In this document: one piece after another, positions 1 through 64,000 of the stretch
How the letters are laid out: each line of letters begins with the position of its first letter
How positions within the stretch are numbered: position 1 is the first letter of the stretch
NCBI RefSeq assembly: GCF_039537585.1
Contig: NZ_BAABAU010000003.1
Coordinates: forward strand, 62,001 to 126,000
Source: Frondihabitans peucedani
GTDB taxonomy: Bacteria; Actinomycetota; Actinomycetes; Actinomycetales; Microbacteriaceae
DNA: 64,000 bases
Direction of reading: 5' to 3'
Notes under the pieces: generated by a model
What the model saw: the letters and a program-made list of their open reading frames with translations, nothing else
The model's database searches: none
Told to the model about the DNA's origin: nothing
Program-made: the position numbers and the translations under genes

Positions 1-2196
1 GCGGATCTGCCTCGGACCGACGACCACGACCGAGTCGAACTCGAGGCCCTTCGACGTGGCGGGGCTCAGGACGCTGATCGGCGCGGTGAGCGAGCTCGTG
101 CCGAGCGCGACATCGCCGGGGAAGCGCTCCTCGAGTGCACCGGCCAACCCCTCCACGAGGGCCTCAGGGGCGATGACCGCCAGCGTGCCCACCGCGTCGA
201 TGCCGCGATCGAGAGCGACCGCCTCGACGACAGCCTCGCGGGCGTCATCACCCGCCTGGACCTCCCGCACCGGCCACTCGCTCGCGCGGACCGACCGGGA
301 CGCGGTGATCCGGAGCCCCGACTCGCGGGCGACCCGCTCGGCGTACTCGACGATCTGGCTCGGGGTGCGGTAGTTGACGGTCAGCTCTTCGAGGCGCCAC
401 GGGCCGGTCTCGCTGGACGCGGCCTGGCGGCGGCGACCGAGGAGGCTCTGCAGCGCGCGGTCCCACGAGTCGGCCGAGGCAGGCGAGGACGCCTGCGCGA
501 TGTCGCCGACGACCGTGAAGGACCGCAGCGGGCAGCGCCGGGCGAGGAGTCGCCACTGCATGGGCGAGAGCTCCTGCGCCTCGTCGACGACGACGTGGCC
601 GAACGCCCACGTCCGGTCGCCCGCAGCGCGCTCGGCGGTCGTCATCGACGCTGCCCGCTCGGCGAAGTTCCCGGCGATGTCGGACGCCGACACCATGCCC
701 TCGACCTGCATGTTCTCGATGGCGCGCTCGGCGTTCTCGATGTCGCGCTTCTGCTGCTGCTTGCGCGCCCGCTCCCCCGCATCGACGGCGACGTCGAACT
801 CGCCGAGGAGCTCGGCCGCCTCGTCGAGGAGCGGGACGTCGCTGATCGTCATGGCCGAGCCCCGCTCGCGCCGCAGCAGGGCGCGCTCCTCGTCGGTCCA
901 CTGGGGCGTGATGCTCCGGAGCCAGTTCGGGCGGGCGTAGAGGTCTTCGAGGAGCTTCTGCGGGGTGAGCGGCAGCCAGGCCGTGTTGAGGAGCACGCGG
1001 ACGTCGTACGACTGCCGGATGTCTTCGCGGAGGACGAGGACGTCGGCGTCGTCGATCGTCGTGCCGCGCGTGCGGAGCTGTGCGACGAGCTGCCGGGTGA
1101 GGGCGGCGAGCGCGTTCTTGTTGAAGGTGACGCGGCCCTCGTTGTGCGGCTTCCCGCGATCCTGCGCCCGCTTCATCGCGTCGACGACGAGCTGCGGCTG
1201 CACGACGAGACGCTCGCCGTCGATGTCGACGGTGGCCGGCTCGGTCGGCGGGATCTGCCGCGAGCGGACGGCTCGCCGGAGCAGGTCGGCCATGCGCGAC
1301 GCGCCCTTGAGAGCGGCGACGTCGGGAGCGTCGTCGGTCGTCGCCTCGACGCCCGGGTAGAGGCCGCCGACGCTCGACAGGACGACGCCCGACTCGCCGA
1401 GCGACGGGAGCACCTGCTCGATGTAGCGGAGGAACGAGCGCGACGGCCCGACGACGAGCACGCCCGAGCCCCGAAGCCGCTCGCGGTGCGAGTAGAGGAG
1501 GTAGGCGGCGCGGTGGAGCGCGACCGCGGTCTTGCCGGTGCCGGGGCCGCCCTGCACGACCAGGATGCCGTCGAGCGCCGACCGGATGATGCGGTCCTGC
1601 TCGCCCTGGATGGTCGCGACGATGTCGGTCATCCTGCCGGTGCGCTGCGCTGTGAGCGCTGCCATCAGGGCGCCCTCGCCCTGCAGCTGCGCGTCGCCCC
1701 GGTCGAGGAGCGCGGCGTCGAAGACCTCGTCCTCGATGCGGGTGACCGTGCGGCCCTCGAGGGTCAGGTGACGCCTGGCGCGGGCTCCCATCGGGGTCGC
1801 CGCGGTCGCCTGATAGAAGGCGCTCGCACCGGGCACGCGCCAGTCGAGCAGGATCGGGTGGTGGTCGGGATCGCGGAGACCGATGCGCCCGATGTAGCGG
1901 TAGTCGCCCGACGGAGCCCCGTGGACGGCGGTCAGCGACCGGGGGGACGTCGTCTCGTCGGGCTCCTCGAGCTCGAGGCGACCGAAGGCCAGGCGGTCGT
2001 CGACCTCGGACAGCTGCGCGAGGGTGTCCTCGTAGAGCCTCGCGTAGGCGTCGCGCTCGCTGCGGCTCTGGTGGTTGCCGCCGACCGTCTCGCGCCGGGT
2101 GGCGAGGAGCCGCTCGCGCGCCTCGTTCTTGAGGGTGTCGAGGCGCTCGTAGAGCGTGGACACGTAGTCGCGTTCGCGATCGAGTTCAGATGGCAA
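1..2196 (-). CDS. helD: HelD/HelR-like RNA polymerase-recycling ATPase (C-terminus cut by window edge)
   Basis: UvrD-like superfamily-1 ATPase of the actinobacterial HelD group. Known members bind RNA polymerase and strip it from nucleic acid; some (HelR) also dislodge rifamycins. The start of the protein has a charged, coiled-coil-like segment (ELDRERDYVSTLYERLDTL) typical of HelD and absent from UvrD. Walker A GGPGTGKTA is near residues 213-221, Walker B VVVDEAQE near 533, and the late motif KGLEFDSVVVVG lies at the window edge. About 731 residues are visible, so only a short C-terminal tail is missing. I chose the TTG at 2196: GAGGGG sits 10 bases upstream. The in-frame GTG at 2226 overlaps the -10 box and would precede the transcript. 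A role in drug tolerance is inference; no rifamycin-associated palindrome was seen upstream. Confidence 0.88.
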   Translation of the reverse strand, partial: MPSELDRERDYVSTLYERLDTLKNEARERLLATRRETVGGNHQSRSERDAYARLYEDTLAQLSEVDDRLAFGRLELEEPDETTSPRSLTAVHGAPSGDYRYIGRIGLRDPDHHPILLDWRVPGASAFYQATAATPMGARARRHLTLEGRTVTRIEDEVFDAALLDRGDAQLQGEGALMAALTAQRTGRMTDIVATIQGEQDRIIRSALDGILVVQGGPGTGKTAVALHRAAYLLYSHRERLRGSGVLVVGPSRSFLRYIEQVLPSLGESGVVLSSVGGLYPGVEATTDDAPDVAALKGASRMADLLRRAVRSRQIPPTEPATVDIDGERLVVQPQLVVDAMKRAQDRGKPHNEGRVTFNKNALAALTRQLVAQLRTRGTTIDDADVLVLREDIRQSYDVRVLLNTAWLPLTPQKLLEDLYARPNWLRSITPQWTDEERALLRRERGSAMTISDVPLLDEAAELLGEFDVAVDAGERARKQQQKRDIENAERAIENMQVEGMVSASDIAGNFAERAASMTTAERAAGDRTWAFGHVVVDEAQELSPMQWRLLARRCPLRSFTVVGDIAQASSPASADSWDRALQSLLGRRRQAASSETGPWRLEELTVNYRTPSQIVEYAERVARESGLRITASRSVRASEWPVREVQAGDDAREAVVEAVALDRGIDAVGTLAVIAPEALVEGLAGALEERFPGDVALGTSSLTAPISVLSPATSKGLEFDSVVVVGPRQIR

Positions 2197-2229
2197 CAGG
2201 CGGGCACCCCTCGGGAAAGACAGCACACG

Positions 2230-2235
2230 ATTCTA
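2230..2235 (-). promoter_or_regulatory. -10 box of the HelD gene
   Basis: On the minus strand this reads TAGAAT, a near-consensus -10 hexamer. Transcription would start about 7 bases downstream, giving a roughly 27-base leader that contains the GAGGGG ribosome site and the TTG start. No clear -35 is visible. Confidence 0.5.
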
Positions 2236-2288
2236 ATCACTCGCGCGCCTGACATTCCTCCGAGGGGCGACCGCCTGTCGTTCGGAGG

Positions 2289-3131
2289 CTAGAACTCCTC
2301 GTGCGTCTCGGGGTCGCCGTCCCAGAGGCGGCCGCGCTCGAGGCCGGAGATCGCCTCGACCTCGTCGCTCGTCAGCTCGAACCCGAACACGTCGAGGTTC
2401 TCGCGCTGCCGGCCGGCGTCGCCCGACTTCGGGAGCGGGACGGCGCCCAGCTGGACGTGCCAGCGGATGACGACCTGCGTCGGGGTCACCGAGTGCTCGC
2501 GAGCGATGCCGGTGATGACGTCCTCGGTGAGCAGCTCGCTCTGCTTGCCGATGGGGCTCCAGCTCTCCGTGACGACGCCGAGCTCGGCGTGCACGGCGCG
2601 GAGGGCCGCCTGCGGGAAGTACGGGTGCAGCTCGATCTGGTTGACCGCCGGCACGACGCCGGTCTCGTCGCGGACCCGCTCGAGGTGCTCCCTCGTGAAG
2701 TTGGAGACGCCGATGGAGGTGACGAGCCCGTCGTCCTGCAGCTTCTTGAACGCCCGGAACGACTCCACGTACTTGTCGATCCGCGGCAGAGGCCAGTGGA
2801 TCAGGTACAGGTCGACCCGGTCGAGGCCGAGGTTCTGGCGAGTCTCGTCGAAGCTCCGGAGCGTCTCGTCGTAGCCGTGGTGGCGGCCGGGCAGCTTCGA
2901 CGTGACGACGATCTCGTCGCGCGGCACGTCGGTCTCGCGGACCGCGCGCCCCACGGCGCCCTCGTTGCCGTAGTTCAGCGCCGTGTCGAGGAGGCGGTAC
3001 CCGGTGTCGAGGGCGTTCCGGACGGCCAGGGTGCCCTCGTCGCCGTCGAGCTTGTAGGTGCCGAGGCCGACGGCGGGGAACGCCGTCCCGTCGTTGAGCT
3101 GGAGGGTGGGGACGCTGACGGCCTCGGCCAT
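2289..3131 (-). CDS. Aldo/keto reductase (280 aa)
   Basis: NADPH-dependent carbonyl reductase of the AKR superfamily, similar to 2,5-diketo-D-gluconate reductases. The catalytic tetrad is visible as D49 (LLDTALNYGN), Y54, K79 (VVTSKL) and H112 (LYLIHWPL), close to the usual spacing, and the length of 280 residues is normal for the family. The ATG at 3131 overlaps the stop of the upstream FKBP gene as TGATG, so translation is probably coupled. An in-frame reading continues far upstream, but that part is the shadow of the FKBP gene. The natural substrate cannot be read from sequence. Confidence 0.92.
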   Translation of the reverse strand: MAEAVSVPTLQLNDGTAFPAVGLGTYKLDGDEGTLAVRNALDTGYRLLDTALNYGNEGAVGRAVRETDVPRDEIVVTSKLPGRHHGYDETLRSFDETRQNLGLDRVDLYLIHWPLPRIDKYVESFRAFKKLQDDGLVTSIGVSNFTREHLERVRDETGVVPAVNQIELHPYFPQAALRAVHAELGVVTESWSPIGKQSELLTEDVITGIAREHSVTPTQVVIRWHVQLGAVPLPKSGDAGRQRENLDVFGFELTSDEVEAISGLERGRLWDGDPETHEEF

Positions 3132-3505
3132 CAGCTGACGCCCAGGAGGTCGATCACGAAGATGAGCGTCTTGCCGCTCAGCGGGTGACCGCCGCCCTGA
3201 GGGCCGTAGGCCAGGTGCGGCGGGAGGACGAGCCGGCGGCGACCGCCGACGCGCATGCCGGGGATCCCCTCCTGCCAGCCGCGGACGAGAGCCGCGAGCG
3301 GGAAGTTGATCGACTCGCCGCGGCCCCAGGAGGAGTCGAACTCCTCGCCGGAGTCGTACTCGACCCCGACGTAGTGGACGTCGACCGTCGAGCCGGACTG
3401 GGCCTCGGCCCCGTCGCCCACGGTGATGTCGGTGATCTCGAGGCTCTCGGGGGCGGGGCCCTCGGGGGCGTCGATCTCGGGCTTGGTGGATGCATCGTGT
3501 GTCAT
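3131..3505 (-). CDS. FKBP-type peptidyl-prolyl cis-trans isomerase (124 aa)
   Basis: Small cytoplasmic FKBP-type prolyl isomerase. After a short acidic N-terminus the FKBP fold runs from about residue 20 to the end, with the family blocks VDVHYVGVEYDSGEEFDSSW, GWQEGIPGM, GGRRRLVLPPHLAYG and the closing LIFVIDLL. There is no signal peptide or lipobox. I use the ATG at 3505; a TTG four codons upstream (3517) is possible and neither has a good ribosome site. The gene is co-transcribed with the aldo/keto reductase through a TGATG overlap, an operon partnership with no obvious metabolic logic. Confidence 0.92.
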   Translation of the reverse strand: MTHDASTKPEIDAPEGPAPESLEITDITVGDGAEAQSGSTVDVHYVGVEYDSGEEFDSSWGRGESINFPLAALVRGWQEGIPGMRVGGRRRLVLPPHLAYGPQGGGHPLSGKTLIFVIDLLGVS

Positions 3506-3714: not shown

Positions 3715-5052
3715 TTGACCGCCACCGACCCGACTCCCCCAGCTCCCGCGCGGAAGCGCCTCTTCGTCGATCTCGAGCCGCTCAGGGCGTCGCCCGCCTT
3801 CGCCCGGATGTGGATCGGCTCGGCCGTCTCCGGGATCGGCGCGCAGCTCACCCTGGTCGCCGTCGGCCTCGAGATCTACGACATCACCCGCTCCACCTTC
3901 GCGGTGGCACTCGTCGGCGTGATCTCGCTCGTGCCGATGATCGTCGCCGGGCTCTACGGCGGCATGCTCGCCGACGCCTTCGATCGCAGGATCGTCGCCC
4001 TCCTCGCCGCGGTCGTCGCCTGGGCGACCACCGCGCTCATCGCCCTGCACTCCTACCTCGGCCTCGACAACGTCGCCCTGCTCTACGCGCTGACCACCGT
4101 CGACGCGGTCGCGGCGACGATCATCAACACGTCCAGGCAGTCGATCATCCCCCGCCTCATCCCGACGCGGCTGCTCCCGGCCGCGTCCGCGCTCAACGGG
4201 ATCTCCGGCGGCGTACAGCTCACCGTCGGCCCCGCGCTGGCCGGAGTGCTCGTCGCCTCGGTCGGCTTCAGCGCGACGTACACGGTCGACGTGGTGCTGT
4301 TCACCGCCGCGTTCCTCGGGATCGTGGCGCTCCCCGCGATCCTGCCCGAGGGCGAGATCCAGCGCCCGGGGCTCGAGTCGCTCCTCTTCGGCTACCGGTT
4401 CCTGAAGCGCTCGCCGAACATCCGGATGACCTTCGTCGTCGACATCATCGCGATGACCTTCGGGCAGCCGCGCGTCCTCTACCCGGTGGTCGGGGCCGTC
4501 CTGATCGGCGGCGGGGCGGTGACCGTCGGCGTGCTGACCGCCGCCTACGCGGTCGGCGCGCTCCTCTGCAGCCTCTTCTCCGGGCGGCTCGGCCAGGTCC
4601 GGCGGCAGGGAGCCGCTGTCAACTGGGCGATCGTCGCCTACGGCGCCTGCATCGCGGCGTTCGGGATCGTGCTCTGGGTCGCGCAGTCGGGCGGCTCCCG
4701 CGGGCTCGGGAGCCTGACCGAGGGGCTCGCCTCGGCGAACCTGCCGGCGCTCGCCGCGGCCGCCGTCGCTCTCGCAGCCGCCGGCGCGGCCGACAACGTC
4801 TCGTCGATCTTCCGCAACACGATCCTGCAGGCCGCCGCGCCCGACGCGATGCGCGGGAGGCTGCAGGGCATCTTCACGGTGGTCGTCACCGGCGGCCCGC
4901 GGGTCGGCGACCTCTTCGTCGGCCTGCTCGCCGCGGCGGGCACGGTCTGGCCGCCGCTCCTCGGCGGCGCGCTGATCGTGGTGCTGATCGGGCTGCTCGC
5001 GCGGCTGCAGCCGTCGTTCCGGCGCTACGACGCCGCGAACCCGACGCCGTAG
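3715..5052 (+). CDS. MFS exporter, EntS/MFS_3-like (445 aa)
   Basis: Major facilitator superfamily transporter with about 12 hydrophobic segments. The N-terminal half carries the family pattern between helices 2 and 3 (GGMLADAFDRR, about residues 82-92). The overall arrangement resembles the enterobactin exporter EntS and related MFS_3 proteins, which export siderophores or drugs. The start is the TTG at 3715; the hexamer GAGAAT lies exactly 6 bases before it and there is no Shine-Dalgarno, so the mRNA may be leaderless. The gene ends 11 bases before the convergent PrsW gene. The substrate is unknown; no siderophore genes are nearby. Confidence 0.88.
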   Translation: MTATDPTPPAPARKRLFVDLEPLRASPAFARMWIGSAVSGIGAQLTLVAVGLEIYDITRSTFAVALVGVISLVPMIVAGLYGGMLADAFDRRIVALLAAVVAWATTALIALHSYLGLDNVALLYALTTVDAVAATIINTSRQSIIPRLIPTRLLPAASALNGISGGVQLTVGPALAGVLVASVGFSATYTVDVVLFTAAFLGIVALPAILPEGEIQRPGLESLLFGYRFLKRSPNIRMTFVVDIIAMTFGQPRVLYPVVGAVLIGGGAVTVGVLTAAYAVGALLCSLFSGRLGQVRRQGAAVNWAIVAYGACIAAFGIVLWVAQSGGSRGLGSLTEGLASANLPALAAAAVALAAAGAADNVSSIFRNTILQAAAPDAMRGRLQGIFTVVVTGGPRVGDLFVGLLAAAGTVWPPLLGGALIVVLIGLLARLQPSFRRYDAANPTP

Positions 5053-6336: not shown

Positions 6337-7593
6337 ATGACCGGGATCGCGCGCAGGCCGGCCGAAGGCCTGATCCTGCGCGTCTGGCGGCCCCTGTGGG
6401 CGGCGCTCCGGGCCGCCGGCCGTCTCGTCTCGCGGCTGACCTGGCCGGTGCTCCGGCTCCTCGGGCATCTGGGCGCGGCACCGTTCGTCGCCGGCTGGAA
6501 CCGCTGGCTCGTCGTCGGCGCGCACGACCCGATCCCGTGGCGATACGCCCTCCGACGGACCTACCACGGCTTCTACCGGCACCGGACGATCGACTCCGGA
6601 GCCTCCCTTGCGTTCTTCTCCACGCTCGCCCTGTTCCCGGGCGCCCTCGCCGTCGTGTCGGCCGTGTCGCTCGGCCAGAGCGACGGGGACGCGGTCGCCG
6701 ACATCCTGCGCATCGCCACCATCGCGCTGGGGCCGAACACCGCCGAGTCGCTCCGCTCGCCGCTCGAGTCGCTCCTCAGCCTGTCGAGCCCGGGCGTCAC
6801 CCTCGGGATCGGCCTCGCGCTCACCCTGTGGTCGCTGTCGGGCTACACGTCGGCGTTCGGGCGGGCCATGAACACCATCTACGACATCCAGGAGGGGCGG
6901 CGCTTCGTGCGCTTCCGGTCGTCGATGCTGCTGCTCTCACTCGTGCTGATGGTCGTCTTCGGCGCCATCGCCGCGATCCTGCTGATCACGCCGTCGATCG
7001 CCCAGGCCATCGGCGACCAGTTCCGCTTCGGCGGCATCCTGGTCGCGCTCTGGAACGTGCTCAAGTGGCCGGTCCTCGTCGGACTGGTCGTGCTGGCGAT
7101 CGCGCTGCTCTACTACTTCACGCCGAACATCAAGCACCCGGAGGTGCGGTGGGTGTCGTACGGCGCCCTCTTCGCCATCGCAGGATGGGCCCTCGCCACC
7201 CTCGGCTTCGCGATCTACGTGGTGACCTTCACCCACTACGACCGCGTGTACGGGATCCTCGGCGGCGCCGTCGTCATGCTGCTCTACGCGTTCGTCTCGA
7301 ACTTCGTGCTCGTGCTCGGCGGGGAGCTCGACTCGCAGATCATCCGGGTCAGGTACCTGCAGTCGGGCGTCGAGGCCGAGGGGATGATCCCGCTGCCGGT
7401 GCGGTCGAGCGCCCGCACCCTCGCGATGGCGCGGCACCTCTCACTCGACCAGACCGACGGGCGCACGATGCGGCTGAAGGCGGTGCGCCTGTACGGCGAG
7501 CCGACGCTCGACGAGAGCGGCCGGCCGCACGTGCGGCCGCGGTTTCAGACGCTGAGCGGGCGCGAGCGGAAGGGTGCGCCGCCGGAGGAGTAG
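6337..7593 (+). CDS. YihY/BrkB (UPF0761) family membrane protein (418 aa)
   Basis: Inner-membrane protein of the YihY/BrkB family. Six or seven hydrophobic segments follow a soluble N-terminus of about 80 residues. The family blocks are visible: SGASLAFFSTLALFPG near residue 90, SGYTSAFGRAMNTIYDI near 170, YYFTPNIKHPEVRWVSYGA, and a final YAFVSNFVLVLGGELDSQI. BrkB was once called a ribonuclease (RNase BN), an assignment later withdrawn; the true role is not established. I use the ATG at 6337 rather than an upstream start because of the promoter at 6322-6327. The gene ends 12 bases from the convergent aspartase gene. Confidence 0.9.
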   Translation: MTGIARRPAEGLILRVWRPLWAALRAAGRLVSRLTWPVLRLLGHLGAAPFVAGWNRWLVVGAHDPIPWRYALRRTYHGFYRHRTIDSGASLAFFSTLALFPGALAVVSAVSLGQSDGDAVADILRIATIALGPNTAESLRSPLESLLSLSSPGVTLGIGLALTLWSLSGYTSAFGRAMNTIYDIQEGRRFVRFRSSMLLLSLVLMVVFGAIAAILLITPSIAQAIGDQFRFGGILVALWNVLKWPVLVGLVVLAIALLYYFTPNIKHPEVRWVSYGALFAIAGWALATLGFAIYVVTFTHYDRVYGILGGAVVMLLYAFVSNFVLVLGGELDSQIIRVRYLQSGVEAEGMIPLPVRSSARTLAMARHLSLDQTDGRTMRLKAVRLYGEPTLDESGRPHVRPRFQTLSGRERKGAPPEE

Positions 7594-9185: not shown

Positions 9186-9656
9186 ATGACCGAGAGCGCC
9201 GTGCTGACCCGATTCGTGACCGCCTCCGACGAGGACGCCTGGAAGGCCCTCTACTCCGGCTACCGCGAGTTCTACCGCCTGGAGCGCGACGACCGGGTGG
9301 TCGACCGGGTGTGGGGCTGGATCCTGCGCGGCGAGCACTCTCTTCGCGGCCTCGTGGCGACCGGCGACGACGACGTGCCGATCGCGCTGGCCGACATCCG
9401 GACGTTCGCCAGACCCTCGAGCGGCACGACGGGGCTCTACCTCGACGACCTGTTCACGTCGCCTGCTGCGCGGGGCCGGGGCGCAGGATCGGCGCTCCTC
9501 GCCCGGATCGCGGACCTCGCGGGCGACGAGGGGCTGAGCGTGGTGCGGTGGATCACCGACCGGGAGAACGCTCCGGCGCGGCGCCTGTACGACCGGCACG
9601 CGACAGCGACCCGGTGGGTCACCTACGACCTGCCGCCTTCTGCCCTCACGTCGTGA
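9186..9656 (+). CDS. GNAT-family N-acetyltransferase (156 aa)
   Basis: Small acetyl-CoA-dependent acetyltransferase. The acetyl-CoA pyrophosphate loop RGRGAGSAL is at about residues 96-104, preceded by the beta-4 block LYLDDLFTSPAA and followed by the late TDRENAPARRLYDR helix typical of GNAT. The -10-like TAGCGT (9174-9179) lies exactly 6 bases before the ATG and there is no Shine-Dalgarno, so the mRNA is probably leaderless. The last 11 bases overlap the convergent oxidoreductase gene. The acceptor is unknown. Confidence 0.9.
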   Translation: MTESAVLTRFVTASDEDAWKALYSGYREFYRLERDDRVVDRVWGWILRGEHSLRGLVATGDDDVPIALADIRTFARPSSGTTGLYLDDLFTSPAARGRGAGSALLARIADLAGDEGLSVVRWITDRENAPARRLYDRHATATRWVTYDLPPSALTS

Positions 9657-34228: not shown

Positions 34229-34280
34229 TCCTGCGCGTTCGCCCTGCCGGTGGCGAGGCCGGTCGACGTAGAGTGGACGC

Positions 34281-52714: not shown

Positions 52715-53089
52715 TCACCGCCCGCCGACGATGTCGTCGGCGTTGTCCGCGATCCAGTCCATCAGCGGCACCAGGCGCGCGGCGATCTCGTGGCCGCGCT
52801 CGGTCAGCGAGTAGTCGACGCGCGGCGGGATCGTCGCCTGCGCCTGGCGGTCGACGATGCCGTCGGCTGCGAAGGTGCGGAGGGTCGACGCGAGCATCTT
52901 CTCGCTGATCCCCTCGATCTCGCGGTGCAGCTCGCCCCAGCGGAGCGGTCCGCTCTCGAGGGCCAGCAGGATCAGGACTCCCCAGCGGCTCGTGATTTGC
53001 GTCAAGACCGTCCGGGTCGGGCAGTCGGCCGGGTACTTCCCGCCGCTCAGGCCGGGGCGGGTGCGGGAGATGTCGAAACTGACGCTCAT
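52715..53089 (-). CDS. HxlR-family regulator, QorR-like (124 aa)
   Basis: Winged-helix HxlR protein with the family start CPTRTVLTQITSRWGVLILLAL and GPLRWGELHREIEGISEKML. The N-terminal cysteine (C23) is the position used for redox sensing in QorR-type members. It diverges from an NmrA-type quinone reductase, the qorR-qor2 arrangement known from Corynebacterium glutamicum, where oxidation of the cysteine relieves repression. Minus-strand TAAGCT (53096-53101) is exactly 6 bases before the ATG. Confidence 0.92.
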   Translation of the reverse strand: MSVSFDISRTRPGLSGGKYPADCPTRTVLTQITSRWGVLILLALESGPLRWGELHREIEGISEKMLASTLRTFAADGIVDRQAQATIPPRVDYSLTERGHEIAARLVPLMDWIADNADDIVGGR

Positions 53090-54045: not shown

Positions 54046-54090
54046 GCGCAGGATCAGCGGGAGGCCGGCGGCTGCCGCGTGATCCTGCGC
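54046..54090. terminator. Bidirectional terminator built from an inverted pair of GATCCTGC words
   Basis: GCGCAGGATCA (54046-54056) and TGATCCTGCGC (54080-54090) are perfect 11-base arms. The stem extends inward through GCGG facing CCGC, with one bulged base. It lies between convergent genes, 12 bases after one stop and 2 bases before the other. Confidence 0.8.
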
Positions 54091-54316: not shown

Positions 54317-54492
54317 GTGGTGCTCCTCTCCCGTGCCCGTGGTCGATCTGACGCAACAGTAGGCCGGGCCGGCGGCGCTCCGGCATCCCCCGAACGGGCC
54401 GGACGGTGAACGTCGGACGAAGACGCAGGATCGACTTCCGCCGCGCCACCGGGCCGAGTAGCGTGCTGTCTCACCGCGAAGAGGAGACGACG

Positions 54493-55310: not shown

Positions 55311-56750
55311 CTACCGCCGCGTCAGCGACCCTCCCGCAGCCGCGGGCAGCCGCCACGCGGGCACGAGCGCGACCAGCAGGATCGCGGCGATCACGACGAA
55401 CGCGAAGTCGTAGGCGTAGTCGCCACCCGCCCCGAGGCCGCGCCCGACGGCGAGCCCCGCGGAGATCGCGATCGCTCCGAGGGCGATCCCGCTGCCGACG
55501 GCGATCTGCTGGATCGTGGAGTCGAGCACGTTCGCCCCGGTCATCTGCGGCTTCTCGACGTCGGCGTAGGTGATCGTGTTGTAGGCGGTGAAGCCGACCG
55601 AGCGGGCGGCGCCCGAGATCACGAGGACGACGACCATCAGTCCGAACGGCGTGTCGGCCCGGAAGAACGCCATCGCGACGAGGCAGGCGACGCCGACCAG
55701 GTGCGCGGCGACGAGCAGGCGGCGGAACCCGAAGGTGCGGAGCATCCGGGTGGTGGTCGGCTTGATCGCCAGGTTGCCGGCGAACAGGAACAGCACCGCG
55801 CTGCCCGCCTGCACCGGCGTCCAGCCGAAGGCGGCCTGGTAGAGCAGCGGCAGCACGAACGGGATCGCGCTGATCACGAAACGGTAGACCGAGCCGCCGC
55901 CGAGCGCGACGCCGTAGGTGTGGATCCGGAGGAGGCGGAGGTCGACGAACGGCTTCGGGGCGCGCAGCAGGTGGCGCACGGCGAGCCCGAGCAGGATCAG
56001 CCCCACCACCGCAGCGATCACGGTCTGCACCAGGTCGACCGGCGTGATGGTCAGCAGCGTCGTCGCCCAGACGAGCGAGGCGATGCCGACCGACGTGAGT
56101 GAGAGGCCGAGCCAGTCGGGCGGTGTGGGCACGCGCTCGGGATCGACCTCGTCGGCCCGCCTCGGCACGATCCGCATCGCGAACGCGAACCCGATGATGC
56201 CGAGCGGCACGTTCACCAGGAAGATCCAGTGCCAGGAGGCGTAGGTCGTCAGGAGGCCGCCGACGAACGGGGCCAGGATCGGCGCCACCAGCGCCGGCCA
56301 GGTGAGGAGCGCCACCGCGCGGATCAGGTCTTCTTTCGCCGTGACACGCAGCACGGTCATCCGCCCGACGGGCACCATCATGGCCCCGCCGACGCCCTGG
56401 ACGATCCGCGCGACGACCAGCATCGGCAGCGATCCGCTCAGAGCGCACGCGACGGACGCGAGCGTGAACAGCGCGATGGCCGTGAGCAGGATCGTGCGGC
56501 TGCCGAACCGGTCGGCGAGCCACCCACTGACCGGGATCAGCACCGCCACGGTCATGACGTACGCGGTGATGGCGACACCGACGCTCGCAGCGTCGACGTG
56601 CAGGTCGCGGGAGATGCTCGGCACGGCGGTCGTGACGATCGTCGAGTCGAGGTTCTCCATGAAGAAGCAGCCCGCGACGAGCAGGGCGAGGGCCTGGGTG
56701 CCCCTCGAGGCGGTGCGGATCGCTCTCGGGCTCTGGTCTGCCGTGCTCAC
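55311..56750 (-). CDS. MFS drug exporter, DHA2 type (479 aa)
   Basis: Multidrug-type exporter with about 14 helices: MENLDSTIVTTAVPSISRDL (about 30-49), SGWLADRFGSRTILL (about 73-87), RIVQGVGGAMMVPVGRMTVL and the motif-C segment LAPFVGGLLTTY. It starts at GTG 56750, overlapping the stop of the phosphatase gene as GTGA. It is the last of three translationally coupled genes (phospholipase D, phosphatase, exporter), an odd combination. Confidence 0.92.
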   Translation of the reverse strand: MSTADQSPRAIRTASRGTQALALLVAGCFFMENLDSTIVTTAVPSISRDLHVDAASVGVAITAYVMTVAVLIPVSGWLADRFGSRTILLTAIALFTLASVACALSGSLPMLVVARIVQGVGGAMMVPVGRMTVLRVTAKEDLIRAVALLTWPALVAPILAPFVGGLLTTYASWHWIFLVNVPLGIIGFAFAMRIVPRRADEVDPERVPTPPDWLGLSLTSVGIASLVWATTLLTITPVDLVQTVIAAVVGLILLGLAVRHLLRAPKPFVDLRLLRIHTYGVALGGGSVYRFVISAIPFVLPLLYQAAFGWTPVQAGSAVLFLFAGNLAIKPTTTRMLRTFGFRRLLVAAHLVGVACLVAMAFFRADTPFGLMVVVLVISGAARSVGFTAYNTITYADVEKPQMTGANVLDSTIQQIAVGSGIALGAIAISAGLAVGRGLGAGGDYAYDFAFVVIAAILLVALVPAWRLPAAAGGSLTRR

Positions 56751-57469: not shown

Positions 57470-59076
57470 CAGTCGTTCCTCGCCTTCTGACCGGCGAGGT
57501 GGGCCCAGTCGTGCTCGAAGATCGTATCGAAGTAGGTCGCGGCGGTGACGCTGTCGAGGATGACGCCGGCGTCGCGATTGCTCAGGACCCCTGCCGTGGA
57601 CCAGTTCTGGCTGCTCACGAGGACGCGGCGACCGTCGACGACGATCCCCTTGTTGTGGACGTTCGACTGGAGACGCACCCGCGTCATGACGTCGAGGCCT
57701 GCCGCCTGGAGCTGCTCGAGGAACCCGGCCGTCTCGAACTGGCTCATGATGATCCGCACGTCGACGCCCGCCTTCTGCCGGTCGACGACGGCGGCGACGA
57801 GGTCGGCGAACGGCTTCGAGGCGTCGGACGCCGTCTTCGGCAGCTCGATGTACTGGAACTGCAGGTGGAGGCTCGTCTCGGCCGACTCGATGAGCTCGCG
57901 GACGGCTGTCACGTAGACGCCGGCGTCGGGCGTGAGGACCGGAGTGACACGGGTGACGTCGGTCGCGGTCCCGGCTGCGAAGAACTGCTGGAACGGCGGC
58001 GTGGACGCCGCGGGCACCAGCACCTCGGGGGCGGGCAGCCTCTCGGCCTGAGCCGATGCGACCGCGGTGACGTCGTGAGCCTCGGCCGTCGAGAGGTCGT
58101 TCGCGAGGAAGGCCTCGAACGTCGAGGCGAGACCCTCGTCGTGGATGACGACGTGCCAGTCGCGGTCGCGGGTACGGGCCTCGTCAGCATCCGAGGGCAC
58201 GGTGACAGGGTCGATGTCGGGCTGGTTGGAGTTGTTCCAGTTGCCGCTCGAGAGCCACACGCTGGCCGAGTCCCGGACCGCGACCTTGATGTGATAAGCC
58301 GTCGGGAAGATCCAGGCCGCGGCGAGGGGGTCCATGCGGTCGAGGGCCCAGGCCTGCTCGAGACCGTCGCCGAGGTTCTTTGCCAGATCGACGACCGTCG
58401 CCTCGTCGGTCTGGTCGGCAGTCGGGTTCTTCGCCGGGTGATCGAGGACGAGGCGGAGCCTCTTCCCGGCCAGCTCTCGCTCGACCGTCTGGAGGACGTG
58501 CGCGGAGGTGAAGTCGTAGAGGCCGACCGTGAGCGAGCTCTCGGTGCCGTGGAGGAAGGCCGCGAGCGTCGGCCAGCCGGAGTCGGGGCTCGCGCTGAGC
58601 TCGACCGTCGTGCCCGGCGCGAGGTCGACGGGTGCCAGGCTCGCTCCGGCGGGCGGCTGGTAGGGCAGCTGCGGCTTGGAGGCCTCGGGCTGGGCGAAGC
58701 CCGAAGCACTGTGCTCCGTCGGCGCCTCGATCCGGTGAAGCGCCGGCGAGGGGCCAGCGACGACCCGCAGCTCGGAGGCGAACGCGGGGACGGCGCCGAG
58801 ATCGGGCGTCGGACCGGTCACGCGGGCGTAGGCGACGGGATCCTGCACCTGCAGCGCCTTGCTCTCGGTCGCCGCCCGGACGTCGAGCGGCACGCCCTCC
58901 AGCTCGGCGGGCAGCGCCGGCGGCTCGCCGACGACGGTCACGACGACGGCGCGCTCGGTCGTGATCCAGCCGTCGCGGAACACGTACCCGGGCCGGACGC
59001 TCAGGACCCCCGGCAGCGCGAGGATCGCGGCGCTCCGCTCGATGACGCTCTGGATGTCGCTCGTGGTGATGGCCAT
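57469..59076 (-). CDS. Phospholipase D-like domain protein with two HKD motifs (535 aa)
   Basis: Two PLD catalytic repeats: YHIKVAVRDSASVWLSSGNWN (near 261) and VHNKGIVVDGRRVLVSSQNWS (near 471). Both are HxK(x)4D with the following SxNW, so a complete two-half active site is present. The N-terminal 130 residues (RPGYVFRDGWITTERAVVVTV onward) form an extra domain found in other PLD proteins of unknown role. There is no signal peptide. Minus-strand TAGCGT (59083-59088) is exactly 6 bases before the ATG. It could be a nuclease, phospholipase or phosphatidyltransferase. Confidence 0.88.
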   Translation of the reverse strand: MAITTSDIQSVIERSAAILALPGVLSVRPGYVFRDGWITTERAVVVTVVGEPPALPAELEGVPLDVRAATESKALQVQDPVAYARVTGPTPDLGAVPAFASELRVVAGPSPALHRIEAPTEHSASGFAQPEASKPQLPYQPPAGASLAPVDLAPGTTVELSASPDSGWPTLAAFLHGTESSLTVGLYDFTSAHVLQTVERELAGKRLRLVLDHPAKNPTADQTDEATVVDLAKNLGDGLEQAWALDRMDPLAAAWIFPTAYHIKVAVRDSASVWLSSGNWNNSNQPDIDPVTVPSDADEARTRDRDWHVVIHDEGLASTFEAFLANDLSTAEAHDVTAVASAQAERLPAPEVLVPAASTPPFQQFFAAGTATDVTRVTPVLTPDAGVYVTAVRELIESAETSLHLQFQYIELPKTASDASKPFADLVAAVVDRQKAGVDVRIIMSQFETAGFLEQLQAAGLDVMTRVRLQSNVHNKGIVVDGRRVLVSSQNWSTAGVLSNRDAGVILDSVTAATYFDTIFEHDWAHLAGQKARND

Positions 59077-59883: not shown

Positions 59884-60899
59884 CACGTGTCGTCGGAGTC
59901 CCGGACCGTGCGCCCGAGCGACAGGTCGTCCCGCTCGCCGTGGTGCTGCCGGACGTAGAGGGCGAGGTCGGCGACCCGCTTGCCGTGCTCGGCGTCCTTG
60001 GCGAGCGGCGCCGGGCCGAGCGCGTGCCCGACCTCGTGCACGACCGCCTCGGCGCAGCGGGCGACGGTCGACCGGACGCGCTTGGCGAGGAGGCTGCCGC
60101 GCGACCCCTCGGCCTCACCGGCGTCGACGGCGCGGGCAGCTGTCGCGAGCGCCGTGCGCGCCTCCGCCAGGCGGGCGTCGACGGTGCCGACGTGCATGAG
60201 CAGGATCGAGTCCCCCTCGCGCTCCGGTCGCCTCGACGCGTCGAGGAGGGCCCGGGCCACGCCGACCGCGCCGCCGAACCAGCACGCGGCGACGCTCATG
60301 CCGCCCCAGGCGAAGCCGGCCCGGTCGAGGTACCACTGCGCCTCGCCCACCGGCTGGCACGGGGCGTCGTCGAACACGACGTCGCCGCTCGGGATCTCGG
60401 ACAGTCCCCGGGCCGACCAGCCCGCATCGGGCACGGTGACGCAGGGGCCTTCGAGGGGGACCCGGAAGAGCCGACGCCGGGAGTCGTCGACCCACGCGGT
60501 CACGAGCGCGTCGGAGAGCGATCCGGCGAGCGAGCACCACGGCTTGGTGCCGTTCAGTCGCCAGCCCGCGGGGGTCTCCCGGGCATCGACCCGGAGCCCC
60601 GGAGCCTCCGCCGCGTAGACGCCCCAGGTGCCGCCCCGGACGTGCGTGACGCCGGCCTGGTCGAGGATCGTCAGGGCGTCGAGGTGCGGCTCGACAGTGC
60701 GGGCGAGAGCGAGGTCGGAGGCGGCGAGACTCGCGAGCGCCTCCCAGACGTCGAGCGTCGCGCCGTTGCCCACGAACGGCCGCAGCGGACCGAGGGCGAC
60801 GCCGAGGTCGAGGGCCTCGCGGACGTTCTTCGGATCGGTCTCGAGCGTGGTCTGCGTGACCGGGCCCGGCTCGCCGTCGGCGAGCGCCACGCGTCTCAC
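59880..60899 (-). CDS. Acyl-CoA dehydrogenase-like protein (339 aa)
   Basis: Acyl-CoA dehydrogenase fold: an ALASLAASDLALARTVEPHLDAL N-terminal helix, the middle beta region (GWRLNGTKPWCSLAGSLSDALVTAW, like the family's G-K-x-W/F-I-T-N-A block) and C-terminal helices ending HGERDDLSLG. At 339 residues it is shorter than the usual 380-400. The catalytic glutamate cannot be placed with confidence. GTG 60899 overlaps the glycosyltransferase stop. It may act on a carrier-bound or glycan-linked acyl group rather than in beta-oxidation. Confidence 0.82.
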   Translation of the reverse strand: MRRVALADGEPGPVTQTTLETDPKNVREALDLGVALGPLRPFVGNGATLDVWEALASLAASDLALARTVEPHLDALTILDQAGVTHVRGGTWGVYAAEAPGLRVDARETPAGWRLNGTKPWCSLAGSLSDALVTAWVDDSRRRLFRVPLEGPCVTVPDAGWSARGLSEIPSGDVVFDDAPCQPVGEAQWYLDRAGFAWGGMSVAACWFGGAVGVARALLDASRRPEREGDSILLMHVGTVDARLAEARTALATAARAVDAGEAEGSRGSLLAKRVRSTVARCAEAVVHEVGHALGPAPLAKDAEHGKRVADLALYVRQHHGERDDLSLGRTVRDSDDTW

Positions 60900-61597
60900 A
60901 GCGTCCTCGCGAGGTAGGCGGCGTATCCCCCGGGGGTGCGCCCGGAGGCTCGCCCGGACGTCACCACCTCGGCCGAGTCGGAGGCCGTGATCGCCGCGCC
61001 CGCGTCCTGGAGGCGCCGGACGAGCAGGTTGTCCTCGTGCTCCTCGACCGCGTCGAAGCCGCCCGCGCCGAGGTGGGCAGAGGCCCGCAGCCCGAGGTTC
61101 GCGCCGTGCACGTGGCCGTTCGGGCGTCCGCGCTCGTGCGTGGCGAGCCACGCGGCATCCTGCTCGGCCGTCAGGTCCGCAGGATCGGGCCGCACGGTCC
61201 CGACCAAGACGTCGGTCCCCTCGTCGGCGAGGTCGAGCTGGTGCGTGAGCCAGTTGTCGGGGACGGCCGAGTCGGCGTCGGTGTTGGCGATCCAGATCTC
61301 CGCCGGGTCGATGCGGCCGAAGGAGGCCAGCCCGAGGCGGACCCCGTGCTCCCGGGCGGCGCCCACGCGACCGGCATCCGACACGACGAGCTCCGCGGTC
61401 CCGCTCGACCGGACGATGCCCTCCGTGTCGTCGGTGCAGGCGTCGGCGACGATCAGGGTGCGGACGACGACCTGGGGGTGGGTCGCGCGGACGGACGCGA
61501 CCGCGCGGTCGAGGGCGTCGAGGCAGCGGCCGATGAGTGTCTCCTCGTCGCGCGCGGGCACGACCACGAGGGCGTGGGTGATCCTGCTCGGGCTCAA
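60896..61597 (-). CDS. Family-2 glycosyltransferase (233 aa)
   Basis: GT-A glycosyltransferase: VVVPARDEETLIGRCLDAL (about 11-29), the nucleotide strand LIVADACTDDTEGI (about 48-61), the DxD motif ANTDADSAVPDNWL (D107, D109) and a late EEHEDNLLVRRLQDAG, as in GT2 enzymes. No membrane helix. The start is TTG 61597 in a TTGA overlap with the methyltransferase stop. It probably transfers a sugar or aminosugar to the compound handled by its three operon partners. Confidence 0.9.
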   Translation of the reverse strand: MSPSRITHALVVVPARDEETLIGRCLDALDRAVASVRATHPQVVVRTLIVADACTDDTEGIVRSSGTAELVVSDAGRVGAAREHGVRLGLASFGRIDPAEIWIANTDADSAVPDNWLTHQLDLADEGTDVLVGTVRPDPADLTAEQDAAWLATHERGRPNGHVHGANLGLRASAHLGAGGFDAVEEHEDNLLVRRLQDAGAAITASDSAEVVTSGRASGRTPGGYAAYLARTL

Positions 61598-62202
61598 CGG
61601 AGCTCCGTCCGCTCGGCCACCGACCGCTGATCGCGGCCGACGACGTCGAGGACGAAGTCGGCCTCGACGTGGTGGACCAGCGTCGTGAAGCCGTCGAGCT
61701 CCGTCACCGCGCGGTGCACGTCGTCGCCCGACTGGAGGAAGTCGCCCTCCACCGGACGCCAGTGGCACGCAGCGATCGTGCCCGTCGCCGACAGGATTCC
61801 GCGGGCCCGCTCGAGCAGGACTCCGAGGCTCTCCAGCGAGAGGTAGTAGCCGACCTCCGAGAGGACCACGAGGTCGAACTCGCCCTCCGGGAGACCGTCG
61901 GTCACGTCCCAGCGCTCGACGCGGGCGTGCGAGACCGCGGCGAGGCGCTCGCGAGCCGTGCGCACCGCCTCTCCGGACACGTCGACGGCGAGGATCGAAT
62001 CGCTCCGCTCGGCGAGGTCGAGCGTCGAGATGCCGACCGAGCAGCCGATCTCGAGGACCCGGCCGAGGCGCTCCTCCGGCAGAGACGCGAGCAGGATCCT
62101 GCGCTTCCTGATCTCGTACCAGCGCCGCTCGAGCCCCCACGGGTCGCCCTTCCCCTCGTGCCGAGCGTCGAAGTGGGCTTCCGCGGCATCGAGGGCGATC
62201 AT
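61594..62202 (-). CDS. SAM-dependent methyltransferase, NodS-like (202 aa)
   Basis: Class-I methyltransferase. The SAM motif VLEIGCSVGISTLDLAE is at residues 49-65 and the acidic strand end ILAVDVSGEA at D74. The N-terminus (HFDARHEGKGDPWGLERRWYE onward) resembles the NodS group, which N-methylates the deacetylated sugar of Nod factors. It is the first gene of the four-gene operon. Minus-strand TACCGT (62210-62215) is 7 bases before the ATG: probably leaderless. Confidence 0.88.
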   Translation of the reverse strand: MIALDAAEAHFDARHEGKGDPWGLERRWYEIRKRRILLASLPEERLGRVLEIGCSVGISTLDLAERSDSILAVDVSGEAVRTARERLAAVSHARVERWDVTDGLPEGEFDLVVLSEVGYYLSLESLGVLLERARGILSATGTIAACHWRPVEGDFLQSGDDVHRAVTELDGFTTLVHHVEADFVLDVVGRDQRSVAERTELR

Positions 62203-62361: not shown

Positions 62362-63843
62362 ATGTCCGACACGCCCCGAACCCGCCTGCGGGTCCGTCCG
62401 CGCCACGTCGTCCGCTGGATCGCCATCGTCGTGGTGCTGATCCTGGTCGCGACGATCGGCTACGCCGTCTACAACTACCAGCACTTCGTCTCCGGGGTGA
62501 CGCACATCGACGCGCTGCCGGCGTCGACGAGCCAGGCGAAGACGAGCGGTGAGAACATCCTGCTCGTCGGAGACGACCACCGGCCGGCGAACGCGTCCGC
62601 TGCGGAGCTGGCCGAGCTCGGAACGACGTCCGACGGCGGGGGCACCAACACCGACTCGATGCTGATCCTGCACATCCCCGACGGCGGCGGCAAGGCCACT
62701 CTCATCTCACTGCCGCGCGACTCGTGGGTGTCGATCCCCGGCTACGGCATGGGCAAGCTGAACGCCGCGTTCGCCTACGGGAGCGCGAAGGGCGGCGACT
62801 CGGGCGGGGCGAAGCTGCTCGTCGAGACGATCCAGAACCTCACCACCCTGCACATCGACCACTTCGTCCGGATCTCGATGGTCGGGTTCTACGACGTCGC
62901 GAAGGCTCTCGGACCCCTGAAGGTGTGCCTCGTCGACGCGGTGGACGATTCGTACTCCACCTTCACGGCACCAGCAGGCGTCTCGACGCTCGACGCGCAG
63001 CAGGCCCTCGCATTCGTCCGGCAGCGGCACGGGCTGCCGAACGGCGACCTCGACCGCGAGGCCCGGCAGCGGTACTTCCTGAGCGCCGAGGCGAAGAACT
63101 TCCTGAAGCCGTCGACCCTGCTGAATCCGGGCCGGCTGAATGCCGCGCTCACAGCGGTCGGATCCGCCATCCAGACCGACAAGGGCCTGAACTGGCTGAC
63201 GCTCGCCACCCAGCTCAAGGACATCGCGGGTGGGAACCTCGACTCGACGACGATCCCGGTCTCCGGCACCCCGACGATCTACTCGGGCGGCACGGCCATC
63301 TCGATCGTGCAGGTCGACACGGCGAAGATGCCGGCCTTCGTGGCCGCGCTCGACGCCGCACCCGCGTCGACGAGCGGAAAGTCCACCGGCAGTGGCTCGG
63401 GCGCCGCCGCGTCCACCGTCACGCCGTCCCAGGTCAGCGTGACCGTCCTCAACGGCAGCGGGGTGGCGGGCGCCGCAGGAACCAGCACCGCGACCCTCGC
63501 GACCGCCGGCTTCACGACCTCGACGCCGTCGACCGTCAGCACCCGCGCGGCCAGCACGATCCAGTACCCGTCGTCGATGGCCGCGGAGGCGAGGACCCTC
63601 GCCGCCTATGTGCCAGGCGCGACGCTCGAGGCCGTGACCGGGGTGGCCGGGGTGACGCTCGTTCTCGGGACCGACGGGGCGACGGCGAAGGCGAAGCCGA
63701 GCACGGCAGGTTCGGGGTCGGGGTCGGGCTCGGGGTCTTCAGGCACCTCGGGGTCGTCCGGCTCGTCCGGCTCGTCCCGCTCTGGCAGCTCCCCCGCCGC
63801 CACGAAGACGGCCGCGACCGACGGGATCACCTGCGTCCACTAG
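62362..63843 (+). CDS. LytR-CpsA-Psr family cell-wall ligase (493 aa)
   Basis: Membrane-anchored enzyme that transfers wall polymers from lipid carriers to peptidoglycan. One helix (VVRWIAIVVVLILVATIGYAVY, about 16-37) is followed by the LCP domain (about 55-260) with GGTNTDSMLILHI, LISLPRDSWVSIPGYG (catalytic arginine) and LAFVRQRHGLPNGDLDREARQ. A LytR_C domain follows (VSVTVLNGSGVAGAAGT, about 355-440), then a Gly/Ser/Thr tail with GSGSGS repeats and a single C-terminal cysteine (ITCVH). ATG 62362 is preferred; an in-frame TTG at 62350 is possible. Confidence 0.93.
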   Translation: MSDTPRTRLRVRPRHVVRWIAIVVVLILVATIGYAVYNYQHFVSGVTHIDALPASTSQAKTSGENILLVGDDHRPANASAAELAELGTTSDGGGTNTDSMLILHIPDGGGKATLISLPRDSWVSIPGYGMGKLNAAFAYGSAKGGDSGGAKLLVETIQNLTTLHIDHFVRISMVGFYDVAKALGPLKVCLVDAVDDSYSTFTAPAGVSTLDAQQALAFVRQRHGLPNGDLDREARQRYFLSAEAKNFLKPSTLLNPGRLNAALTAVGSAIQTDKGLNWLTLATQLKDIAGGNLDSTTIPVSGTPTIYSGGTAISIVQVDTAKMPAFVAALDAAPASTSGKSTGSGSGAAASTVTPSQVSVTVLNGSGVAGAAGTSTATLATAGFTTSTPSTVSTRAASTIQYPSSMAAEARTLAAYVPGATLEAVTGVAGVTLVLGTDGATAKAKPSTAGSGSGSGSGSSGTSGSSGSSGSSRSGSSPAATKTAATDGITCVH

Positions 63844-63860
63844 CGCGTCGCTGCGCCAGT

Positions 63861-63894
63861 GCATGAAATCCTCGCCTCGCGCTCCGTTTCATGC
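63861..63894. repeat. Inverted repeat in a probable convergent gap
   Basis: GCATGAAA (63861-63868) and TTTCATGC (63887-63894), with an 18-base loop, starting 17 bases after the LCP stop. A degenerate reversed copy (GTTTCTCCTGCAT) is at 63917-63929. The stop codon of the probable minus-strand gene lies in the right arm. Confidence 0.6.
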
Positions 63895-64000
63895 CGATCG
63901 GGGCGCCTCCGCCGACGTTTCTCCTGCATTAGGCGTCCCACCGTGGCCTCGCGCCCGCGCGAGCGCCACGAGCGCCCCGCCGAGGAGCGCCCCGGCCGTG
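63889..64000 (-). CDS. C-terminal end of a probable membrane protein (cut by window edge)
   Basis: An open minus-strand frame enters from the right edge and encodes TAGALLGGALVALARARGHG and a polar tail ending EAPRSA before a TGA at 63889-63891. The hydrophobic stretch followed by a polar tail suggests the last helix of a membrane protein. Only 36 codons are visible, so this is tentative. Confidence 0.35.
   Translation of the reverse strand, partial: TAGALLGGALVALARARGHGGTPNAGETSAEAPRSA

Follow-up and report, generated by a model that had tools for sequence, protein, structure and literature searches.

A strongly over-represented DNA word of Frondihabitans belongs to a family-wide set of dialects in Microbacteriaceae and looks most like a DNA uptake sequence

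The DNA uptake sequences (DUS) of Neisseriaceae occur about once per kb on both strands, and inverted pairs of DUS are known at terminators. The uptake signal sequence (USS) of Pasteurellaceae is AAGTGCGGT. A density of about one per kb is also that of HIP1, the abundant word of cyanobacteria. Another point of reference is Micrococcus luteus, an actinobacterium of the same order as Microbacteriaceae. To our knowledge, no uptake sequence has been reported in bacteria without an outer membrane, and a case in Microbacteriaceae would be the first. One account describes such sequences for Pasteurellaceae and Neisseriaceae (PMC7811141). Eight DUS dialects sharing a CTG core, reported to follow phylogeny, are listed for Neisseriaceae in another (PMC3630211). 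In M. luteus, according to PMC4322843, transformation needs the tad genes and is lost with comEC. No report of a word of this kind in actinobacteria was found in the literature, among the matches listed.

The window, i.e. the whole stretch of DNA analyzed here, comprises 64,000 nt of Frondihabitans peucedani (GCF_039537585.1, NZ_BAABAU010000003.1, positions 62,001-126,000), a soil actinobacterium whose genus belongs to Microbacteriaceae. By exact count, it contains GATCCTGC 35 times on the plus strand and 33 times on the minus strand, i.e. 68 copies. About 60 copies (roughly 33 plus and 26 as the complement) had been counted in the original prediction; these figures are superseded, and the over-representation is real and even larger than first claimed. 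Chance expectation from the window base composition, given before as about 2, was recomputed as about 2.1, and an order-2 Markov model predicts about 5.4 copies on both strands together. Ranked by z-score, GATCCTGC leads all 8-mers of the window, and ATCCTG (143 versus about 23 expected) leads the 6-mers. GATCCTGCGC is present in 25 copies in the window, and CATCCTGC is 2.3-fold above synonymous shuffles. In the whole genome (3,692,699 bases) there are 1,629 forward and 1,579 reverse copies of GATCCTGC, 3,208 in total or 869/Mb, as opposed to 22 copies of the reversed word over the 3.69 Mb. The genome-wide count is thus not near the Markov expectation, the outcome named beforehand as refuting.

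On the plus strand, the word is located at 1158-1165, 4338-4345, 4821-4828, 6372-6379, 6975-6982, 8138-8145, 8837-8844, 9320-9327, 14643-14650, 22573-22580, 23047-23054, 23527-23534, 27508-27515, 32306-32313, 37442-37449, 39978-39985, 41286-41293, 42976-42983, 45439-45446, 46153-46160, 50494-50501, 52545-52552, 53583-53590, 58839-58846 and 62664-62671. The four plus-strand copies at 11657-11664, 18795-18802, 28163-28170 and 30861-30868 read GAT CCT GC in frame, as had been proposed. Minus-strand copies are found at 1848-1855, 3986-3993, 9483-9490, 9873-9880, 9996-10003, 10763-10770, 18169-18176, 23401-23408, 24325-24332, 25801-25808, 27168-27175, 30943-30950, 33699-33706, 41154-41161, 41887-41894, 43414-43421, 43855-43862, 43975-43982, 47518-47525, 48034-48041, 52966-52973, 55376-55383, 55991-55998, 56486-56493, 60200-60207 and 61179-61186. 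In the minus-strand gene 34573-35295, the word at 35129-35136 (plus strand) reads GCA GGA TC, in agreement with the earlier reading, and a second one at 34922-34929 (minus strand) reads GAT CCT GC in frame. According to our own gene calls, eight copies lie in gaps, at 49926-49933, 54081-54088 and 61580-61587 on the plus strand and at 35842-35849, 50060-50067, 51646-51653, 54048-54055 and 54425-54432 on the minus strand. Gap copies had been announced too, but the one placed at 34226 (34227-34234, plus strand) overlaps the end of gene 32909-34228. The coordinates first cited hold within two bases, except for the word given as 50051, which sits at 50060.

The gap copies at 54048 and 54081 face each other as the left and right arms of a terminator-like hairpin at 54046-54090, 3' of gene 53179-54033. 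The inverted pair had been described as terminator-forming, and this agrees with its predicted folding energy of -34.7 kcal/mol (z -2.74), equalled by 1 of 200 shuffles. Inverted word pairs in gaps are few: nine gap pairs lie within 80 nt, of which seven face each other, and three of these seven are the palindrome GCAGGATCCTGC, made of two overlapping words. In the window, its left and right halves are the words at 62091-62098 (minus strand) and 62095-62102 (plus strand). Eleven copies of this palindrome are present in the 40 stretches sampled, 39 of which contain 668 words.

The phenomenon is family-wide in Microbacteriaceae, and GATCCTGC is one dialect in a family-wide set, which goes beyond the original prediction. 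Depending on the lineage, the word is GATCCTGC, CGGATCCT, GCATCCTGC, GTTCCTGC, GGATCCTG, GCGGATCC, GGCATCCG, CGCATCCG or CGCCTCCT. TCC is the core common to every word found, and ATCC is shared by most. GGCATCCG reaches at least 300/Mb in 110 of 299 genomes and is replaced by GCGGATCC or GATCCTGC in other lineages; in the 13 of 299 genomes with more than 400/Mb of GATCCTGC or GCGGATCC, it falls to 41-127/Mb. Replacement occurs even within genus g85, where species G164 has 313 copies of GGCATCCG versus 2,309-3,329 in its four siblings, and 2,514 copies of GCGGATCC versus 285-551. The same word is also found in lineages distant on the ComEC tree: GCGGATCC, at about 760-920/Mb, in six sampled members of g34, G151 and G164, and GATCCTGC in Frondihabitans and G047. 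No clear word was detected in 48-88 kb of coding sequence from G178, G014 and G017, which carry pilB or at least one of a T2SSE ATPase and ComEC. The reduced genome G010 has ComEC and only about 28/Mb of GGCATCCG.

Conservation in orthologues, suggested earlier as a check, was compared with three same-dialect and three other-dialect relatives. The word is kept at orthologous places in 40 of 113 same-dialect versus 18 of 109 other-dialect comparisons (p 0.002). One of the same-dialect relatives, G087, behaves no better than controls (10/38 versus 26%). Named pilB loci constitute a weak test: 41 of 80 loci were hand-chosen by length and genus, and they share rpoBC-fusA. In these loci, GGCATCCG ranks first in Microterricola and Leifsonia sp. 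Root4, and second after GCATCCGC in Cryobacterium; CGGCATCC comes first in pooled MAG loci, CGCGCCTC and GCGCCTCC appear in Frigoribacterium, and GCGCATCC is second in Diaminobutyricibacter. GATCCTGC is outside the top five words of the three Frondihabitans loci, and none of the words established by the other analyses is among the top five for the other Leifsonia, Curtobacterium, Mycetocola, Lacisediminihabitans and Galbitalea. No entry was obtained for Okibacterium.

The search for com/pil genes, also proposed earlier, was positive. ComEC and a T2SSE-family (pilus-type) ATPase are each present in 32 of 32 genomes (12/12 and 20/20). G000 also encodes a type IVa pilus cluster and, next to comEC, a ComEA-like protein (HHH_3, SLBB). 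Trees were built from 29 ComEA and 31 ComEC sequences of 31 genomes, and the ComEC tree does not match dialect. ComEA and ComEC of the dialect-switching G164 cluster with their own genus, away from genomes that share its word. We rejected a comEC transfer as the origin of this switch because the ComEC tree follows genus.

Codon or codon-pair preference, or a sequence resembling a ribosome-binding site, would account for the excess with no DNA-level function. The commonest frame, G-ATC-CTG-C, encodes Ile-Leu with ordinary codons, the complement of GATCCTGC holds AGGA, and our synonymous shuffles leave codon-pair preference unpreserved. However, coding sequence contains 276 copies versus 35 in these shuffles, on both strands, and gaps contain 32 versus 3.2 expected. 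Each of the six frames exceeds expectation (in the sixth, 6 copies versus 0.3), and the one in which the word imposes the rare codons GAT CCT has 61 versus 1.0. Codon shuffling does not explain the excess, which is found in every frame and in gaps and so acts at the DNA level. The other outcome named beforehand as refuting, an excess due to codon-pair preference and missing from gaps and other frames, was not found. Moreover, nine other genera were sampled apart from G047; in eight of them GATCCTGC stands at only 0.7-2.7 times what their own codon usage predicts, the ninth, G045, having 5 copies versus 0.8. We consider this explanation hardly credible. A Chi-like recombination signal or a KOPS-like replication-oriented word would likewise be a non-palindromic over-represented 8-mer, mainly genic. 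Across 24 samples of contig C1, the orientation of words correlates with that of genes (0.56), as the favoured Ile-Leu frame would predict, and with GC skew (-0.40). Against this reading, the leading strand carries 108 of 199 words (54%, 95% interval 47-61%) in G047, whose contig begins at dnaA, and 204 of 391 when G047 is pooled with G063, G028 and G034, whose origins were assumed. The strand neutrality earlier held against Chi and KOPS is thereby confirmed. As the words also differ among species of one genus, a role of this type appears improbable.

A more serious alternative is a HIP1-like, genome-architecture word, made or kept by a cytoplasmic protein that recognizes it (an orphan methylase, a nucleoid protein or a mismatch-repair protein). 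HIP1 is also very frequent and is linked to methylases, and alternate HIPs take its place in some species (PMC4390886). We only infer that the reader is at the cell surface, and a HIP1-like role agrees with the plasmid contig C2 (TrwC relaxase; one plasmid, 40 kb), where GATCCTGC is at chance level (3 versus 2.6) as against 69 versus 5.6 in four hand-picked chromosomal stretches. However, HIPs are palindromic and none of GATCCTGC, GGCATCCG and GCGGATCC is self-complementary. The D12 methylase class (Dam and FokI type) gave matches in 5 of 35 genomes, of which 4 exceeded the cut-off, and none in G000. A single directed repair reaction should furthermore deplete one near-word, i.e. a word one base off GATCCTGC, in every context. 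We sorted near-words by whether their route to the word is synonymous or changes an amino acid. Those one synonymous change away are depleted (183 versus 301.7 in G000, 78 versus 113.1 in G047), and those requiring an amino acid change are in excess (1,323 versus 732.4 and 444 versus 287.6), none of the better-populated classes of the latter (28 and 16, respectively) being below 0.6 of expectation. The synonymous deficit stems mainly from Leu CTC in G-ATC-CTC-C (22 versus 84.0; 0 versus 21.1 in G047) and, on both strands, from Asp GAC (1 versus 13.7 and 18 versus 53.1). Depletion thus affects several near-words and is restricted to synonymous contexts, some of which escape it: there is none for Pro CCC (17 versus 9.6) and CCG (15 versus 11.2) after GAT or for synonymous Ala codons (4 versus 4.5, 7 versus 7.5). 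Such a pattern is compatible with selection, or with replacement by recombination, acting within the limits set by the protein. Vsr-like mismatch repair was also rejected: GATCCTCC looked depleted only in GATCCTGC genomes, but by frame this holds for synonymous contexts only. A HIP1-like role, put forward at first as the main alternative, is weakened by the non-palindromic words and by the 30 of 35 genomes with no D12 match, and we now regard it as rather unlikely, while keeping it in consideration. Finally, the type IVa pilus cluster could specifically read the word, as ComP reads DUS. In its favour, pilB is found in all seven Frondihabitans genomes and in G047, and median GGCATCCG is higher with pilB than without (303 versus 157/Mb among the 247 genomes measuring 2 Mb or more; p 0.001, uncorrected for relatedness). 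Yet 36 pilB-negative genomes, 29 of them at least 98% complete, have at least 300/Mb of GGCATCCG, and no pilB match at E 1e-60 was obtained in the eight GCGGATCC-richest genomes (the six of g34, G151 and G164). G034, whose word is strong, has neither a pilB nor an N_methyl pilin match. Type IVa pili as the required reader were rejected because the word is strong in lineages without pilB, and a specific reading by them has little chance of being correct.

We favour the view that the family shares a self-identity word, probably an uptake sequence, and that GATCCTGC is its dialect in Frondihabitans. The DUS-dialect model fits better than Chi, KOPS or HIP1: like an uptake sequence, the word is non-palindromic, strand-neutral, present about once per kb in gaps and in all frames, and at chance level on the plasmid. 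The reading as an uptake word is thus supported in part, in its sequence features; competence, uptake, binding and a receptor we infer. A candidate surface DNA receptor of a putative competence apparatus, pairing ComEA/ComEC with a filament of the Tad/Flp or type IV kind, would prefer word-bearing DNA, and preferential uptake and recombination of such DNA could keep spreading alleles with the word. The ATPases of pilB-negative genomes are probably Tad ATPases. More tentatively, this may be a many-dialect uptake system which in many lineages is read by a Tad/Flp-type apparatus rather than by type IVa pili, and whose dialects switch within genera and form barriers to gene exchange.

If true, a set of words structured in dialects throughout one family of actinobacteria would mean that DNA self-recognition evolved again; natural competence would then be expected in bacteria of soil and plants for which we found no report of it. 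G164 and its four siblings, together with the Frondihabitans dialects, would be natural experiments for the receptor and for dialect limits on gene flow. Should the cause be other than uptake, Microbacteriaceae possess a type of genome-wide identity word unmatched in the literature searched, which would be equally surprising.

Among known systems, HIP1 and alternate HIPs of cyanobacteria share a very high density and substitution by alternates in some species, but are palindromic with cognate methylases, whereas the words here are asymmetric and the D12 class is mostly absent. Chi and KOPS are also over-represented asymmetric octamers, but here there is no replication-strand bias and words vary within a genus. 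M. luteus competence (Tad/Flp pili, ComEA/ComEC) offers an actinobacterial uptake machine, in line with ComEC and a T2SSE ATPase in all tested Microbacteriaceae, but the term 'uptake sequence' has 0 occurrences in the 2015 paper (PMC4322843). The closest likeness is to the 'take up own DNA' tags, recognized to date in two Gram-negative families, although the resemblance first proposed holds in some respects and fails in others. USS have a similar density, strand neutrality and asymmetric core; unlike them, GATCCTGC has no AT-rich flanks in base frequencies 20 bases either side. Compared with DUS (GCCGTCTGAA and further dialects), Microbacteriaceae belong to another phylum and lack an outer membrane, the core is ATCC/TCC instead of CTG in words of 8-9 bases, and inverted pairs at terminators are few. 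Words also occur here in lineages that lack pilB, and one dialect occurs in distant lineages, whereas DUS dialects are reported to follow phylogeny (PMC3630211). What both families have in common is an asymmetric word about once per kb on both strands, in dialects that differ by lineage around a shared short core.

The exact count of GATCCTGC in the window is 68 (35 on the plus strand and 33 on the minus strand), and the whole 3.69 Mb genome of Frondihabitans peucedani holds 3,208 copies versus 22 for the reversed word, which bears out the massive over-representation claimed in the original prediction. When synonymous codons were shuffled gene by gene over a 384-kb sample of the genome, 35 coding copies were expected and at most 47 were obtained in 50 shuffles, versus 276 observed, and the frame that forces GAT CCT GC was found 61 times versus 1.0 expected. 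As had been predicted, the word occurs in all frames and in gaps: with genes called by our own simple gene caller, 6 of 6 reading frames exceeded expectation, even the sixth, where a cysteine codon is required (just 6 copies versus 0.3), and intergenic gaps held 32 copies versus 3.2 expected under a Markov model. The shuffles preserve each gene's protein sequence and codon usage, not codon-pair preference; this weakness is covered by the excess in gaps and in many frames. A larger sample of 37 stretches (784 kb) contained 542 copies in genes versus 69 expected, plus 88 in gaps, and in a de novo scan GATCCTGC ranked first among all 8-mers by z.

Sequences that differ from the word by a single base were informative as to what maintains it. 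Near-words separated from it by one synonymous change are depleted, both in F. peucedani (183 versus 301.7 expected) and in G047, a word-rich genome of another genus (78 versus 113.1), whereas those needing an amino acid change are in excess (1,323 versus 732.4 and 444 versus 287.6, respectively). Among classes with at least 6 expected, none of the amino-acid-changing ones fell below 0.6 of expectation (0/28 and 0/16). Most of the synonymous deficit is due to Leu CTC in G-ATC-CTC-C (22 versus 84.0 expected; 0 versus 21.1 in G047) and to Asp GAC on both strands (1 versus 13.7 and 18 versus 53.1). No depletion was seen for the synonymous neighbours at Pro (17 versus 9.6 and 15 versus 11.2) or Ala (4 versus 4.5 and 7 versus 7.5). 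A force acting at the DNA level thus converts sites where the protein permits, via several different substitutions. A single directed repair reaction is unlikely to be the cause.

The spacing of the word is near exponential (mean 1,123, sd 1,293), and its density per kb is 0.96 in convergent gaps, 0.97 in divergent gaps and 0.72 between co-directional genes. Word pairs preferentially face each other; GCAGGATCCTGC, the palindrome that two overlapping words form, was counted 11 times. The inverted pair at 54046-54090, proposed to form a terminator, does fold as a terminator-like hairpin. Flanking bases are biased just weakly, towards C on the 5' side and, on the 3' side, towards the GC said to follow the word. 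Last-base variants of the word are enriched (O/E 2.5-3.7), as is CATCCTGC (O/E 2.3). Elsewhere in the window, 10 of the 63 called proteins were scanned and correspond to ordinary enzymes and transporters, apart from an SNF2-type helicase encoded at 36863-39037; neither tRNA nor Rfam matches were found across the window.

At orthologous positions, the word was kept in 40 of 113 comparisons with relatives of the same dialect (G285, G087 and G246) versus 18 of 109 with relatives using another one (G201, G004 and G150), a contrast with a p value of 0.002 that comes from small numbers and non-independent sites. Control 8-mers of the same composition were conserved at 26-31% in all six relatives, so this contrast combines a modest gain, seen in two same-dialect relatives, with a loss in the other-dialect ones. 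The third same-dialect relative, G087, showed no gain over controls (10/38 kept versus 26%).

Within the 299 genomes of the family set, over which our tests ignore relatedness, just five have GATCCTGC above 400/Mb: four of the seven Frondihabitans (869, 634, 534 and 436/Mb) and G047 (538/Mb). It reaches at most about 230/Mb in every other genome outside Frondihabitans, and 222-298/Mb in the remaining three Frondihabitans, which carry words of their own: CGGATCCT in one (38 versus 5.6 expected), GCATCCTG in another (24 versus 6.6) along with GGCTCCTG, and GTTCCTGC in the third (21 versus 5.2, based on 71 kb of coding sequence). In other lineages we found GGCATCCG (G063 and G002), CGCATCCG (G028), GCGGATCC (G034) and CGCCTCCT (G110), the latter being the weakest among the larger samples (66 versus 24.8 expected) and overlapping a ribosome-binding-like sequence; no clear word was seen in G178, G014 and G017. 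Family-wide, GGCATCCG is present at 300/Mb or more in 110 of the 299 genomes (38 of 85 genera), where it is strand-balanced (100,333 forward, 99,628 reverse). GCGGATCC exceeds 400/Mb in eight genomes, namely G151, G164 and all six sampled from genus g34 (805-879/Mb). One word appears to replace another: in the 13 genomes where GATCCTGC or GCGGATCC passes 400/Mb, GGCATCCG is at just 41-127/Mb, versus a median of 276/Mb among the remaining genomes of 2 Mb or more. G164 has 2,514 copies of GCGGATCC and 313 of GGCATCCG, versus 285-551 and 2,309-3,329 in its four siblings of genus g85. This exclusion is not absolute, as G126 (genus g57) has both (1,269 and 3,548, respectively) and is possibly a genome caught in the middle of a dialect change. 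In F. peucedani, four hand-picked chromosomal stretches contained 69 words versus 5.6 expected, and a low-GC stretch of contig C4 contained 3 versus 1.5. The 94-kb contig C2 (L008, L068), plasmid-like with 64% GC and a TrwC-type relaxase gene, is probably a plasmid; its 3 words in 40 kb versus 2.6 expected are at chance level.

F. peucedani possesses a type IVa pilus cluster at C1:2144568-2158213 (L129 19568 to L130 13213), between rpoBC and rpsL-rpsG-fusA-tuf. Its Pfam matches fit pilB, pilT, pilC, two pilins, a prepilin peptidase, PilM and PilO; the pilV/W/X-like and pilN-like designations are our own labels, outside the Pfam-matched set. The pilB marker is found in 148 of the 299 genomes. 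Its being required for the words is ruled out by 36 pilB-negative genomes with at least 300/Mb of GGCATCCG, 29 of which are at least 98% complete. ComEC and a T2SSE-family ATPase were each present in 32 of 32 genomes searched, chosen rather than random, with 23 genomes common to both sets; the ATPase of pilB-negative genomes is taken to be of the Tad type. Comparisons of ComEC and of ComEA track genus and not dialect. The comEC of the word-rich Frondihabitans G246 (C1:2981383-2982173) is divided between two reading frames, possibly a pseudogene or a sequencing error. In G285, a second replicon (contig C2) carries a pilB/pilT-like pair of its own and accounts for 15 of the 18 N_methyl pilin matches of that genome.

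Uptake sequences, HIP1, Chi and KOPS were the known kinds of word weighed. A Chi or KOPS-type signal is argued against by the balanced leading-strand share: in G047, where dnaA stands at the contig start, 108 of 199 copies are on the leading strand, in line with the predicted absence of strand bias, and over four genomes the share is 204 of 391, the origin being assumed in three. A HIP1-type word fits poorly with the asymmetry of the Microbacteriaceae words and with the scarcity of D12 methylases, the one class searched (5 of 35 genomes). Strand balance, asymmetry and few D12 methylases, together with the presence of ComEC and the T2SSE-family ATPase, make it slightly more likely than not that these words are DNA uptake sequences. 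Two known systems point the same way. In Micrococcus luteus, transformation requires tad genes and is abolished without comEC, according to an excerpt of PMC4322843. The DUS dialects of Neisseriaceae have a common CTG core, as excerpted from PMC3630211; likewise, TCC is common to all dialect words found here, and ATCC to most.
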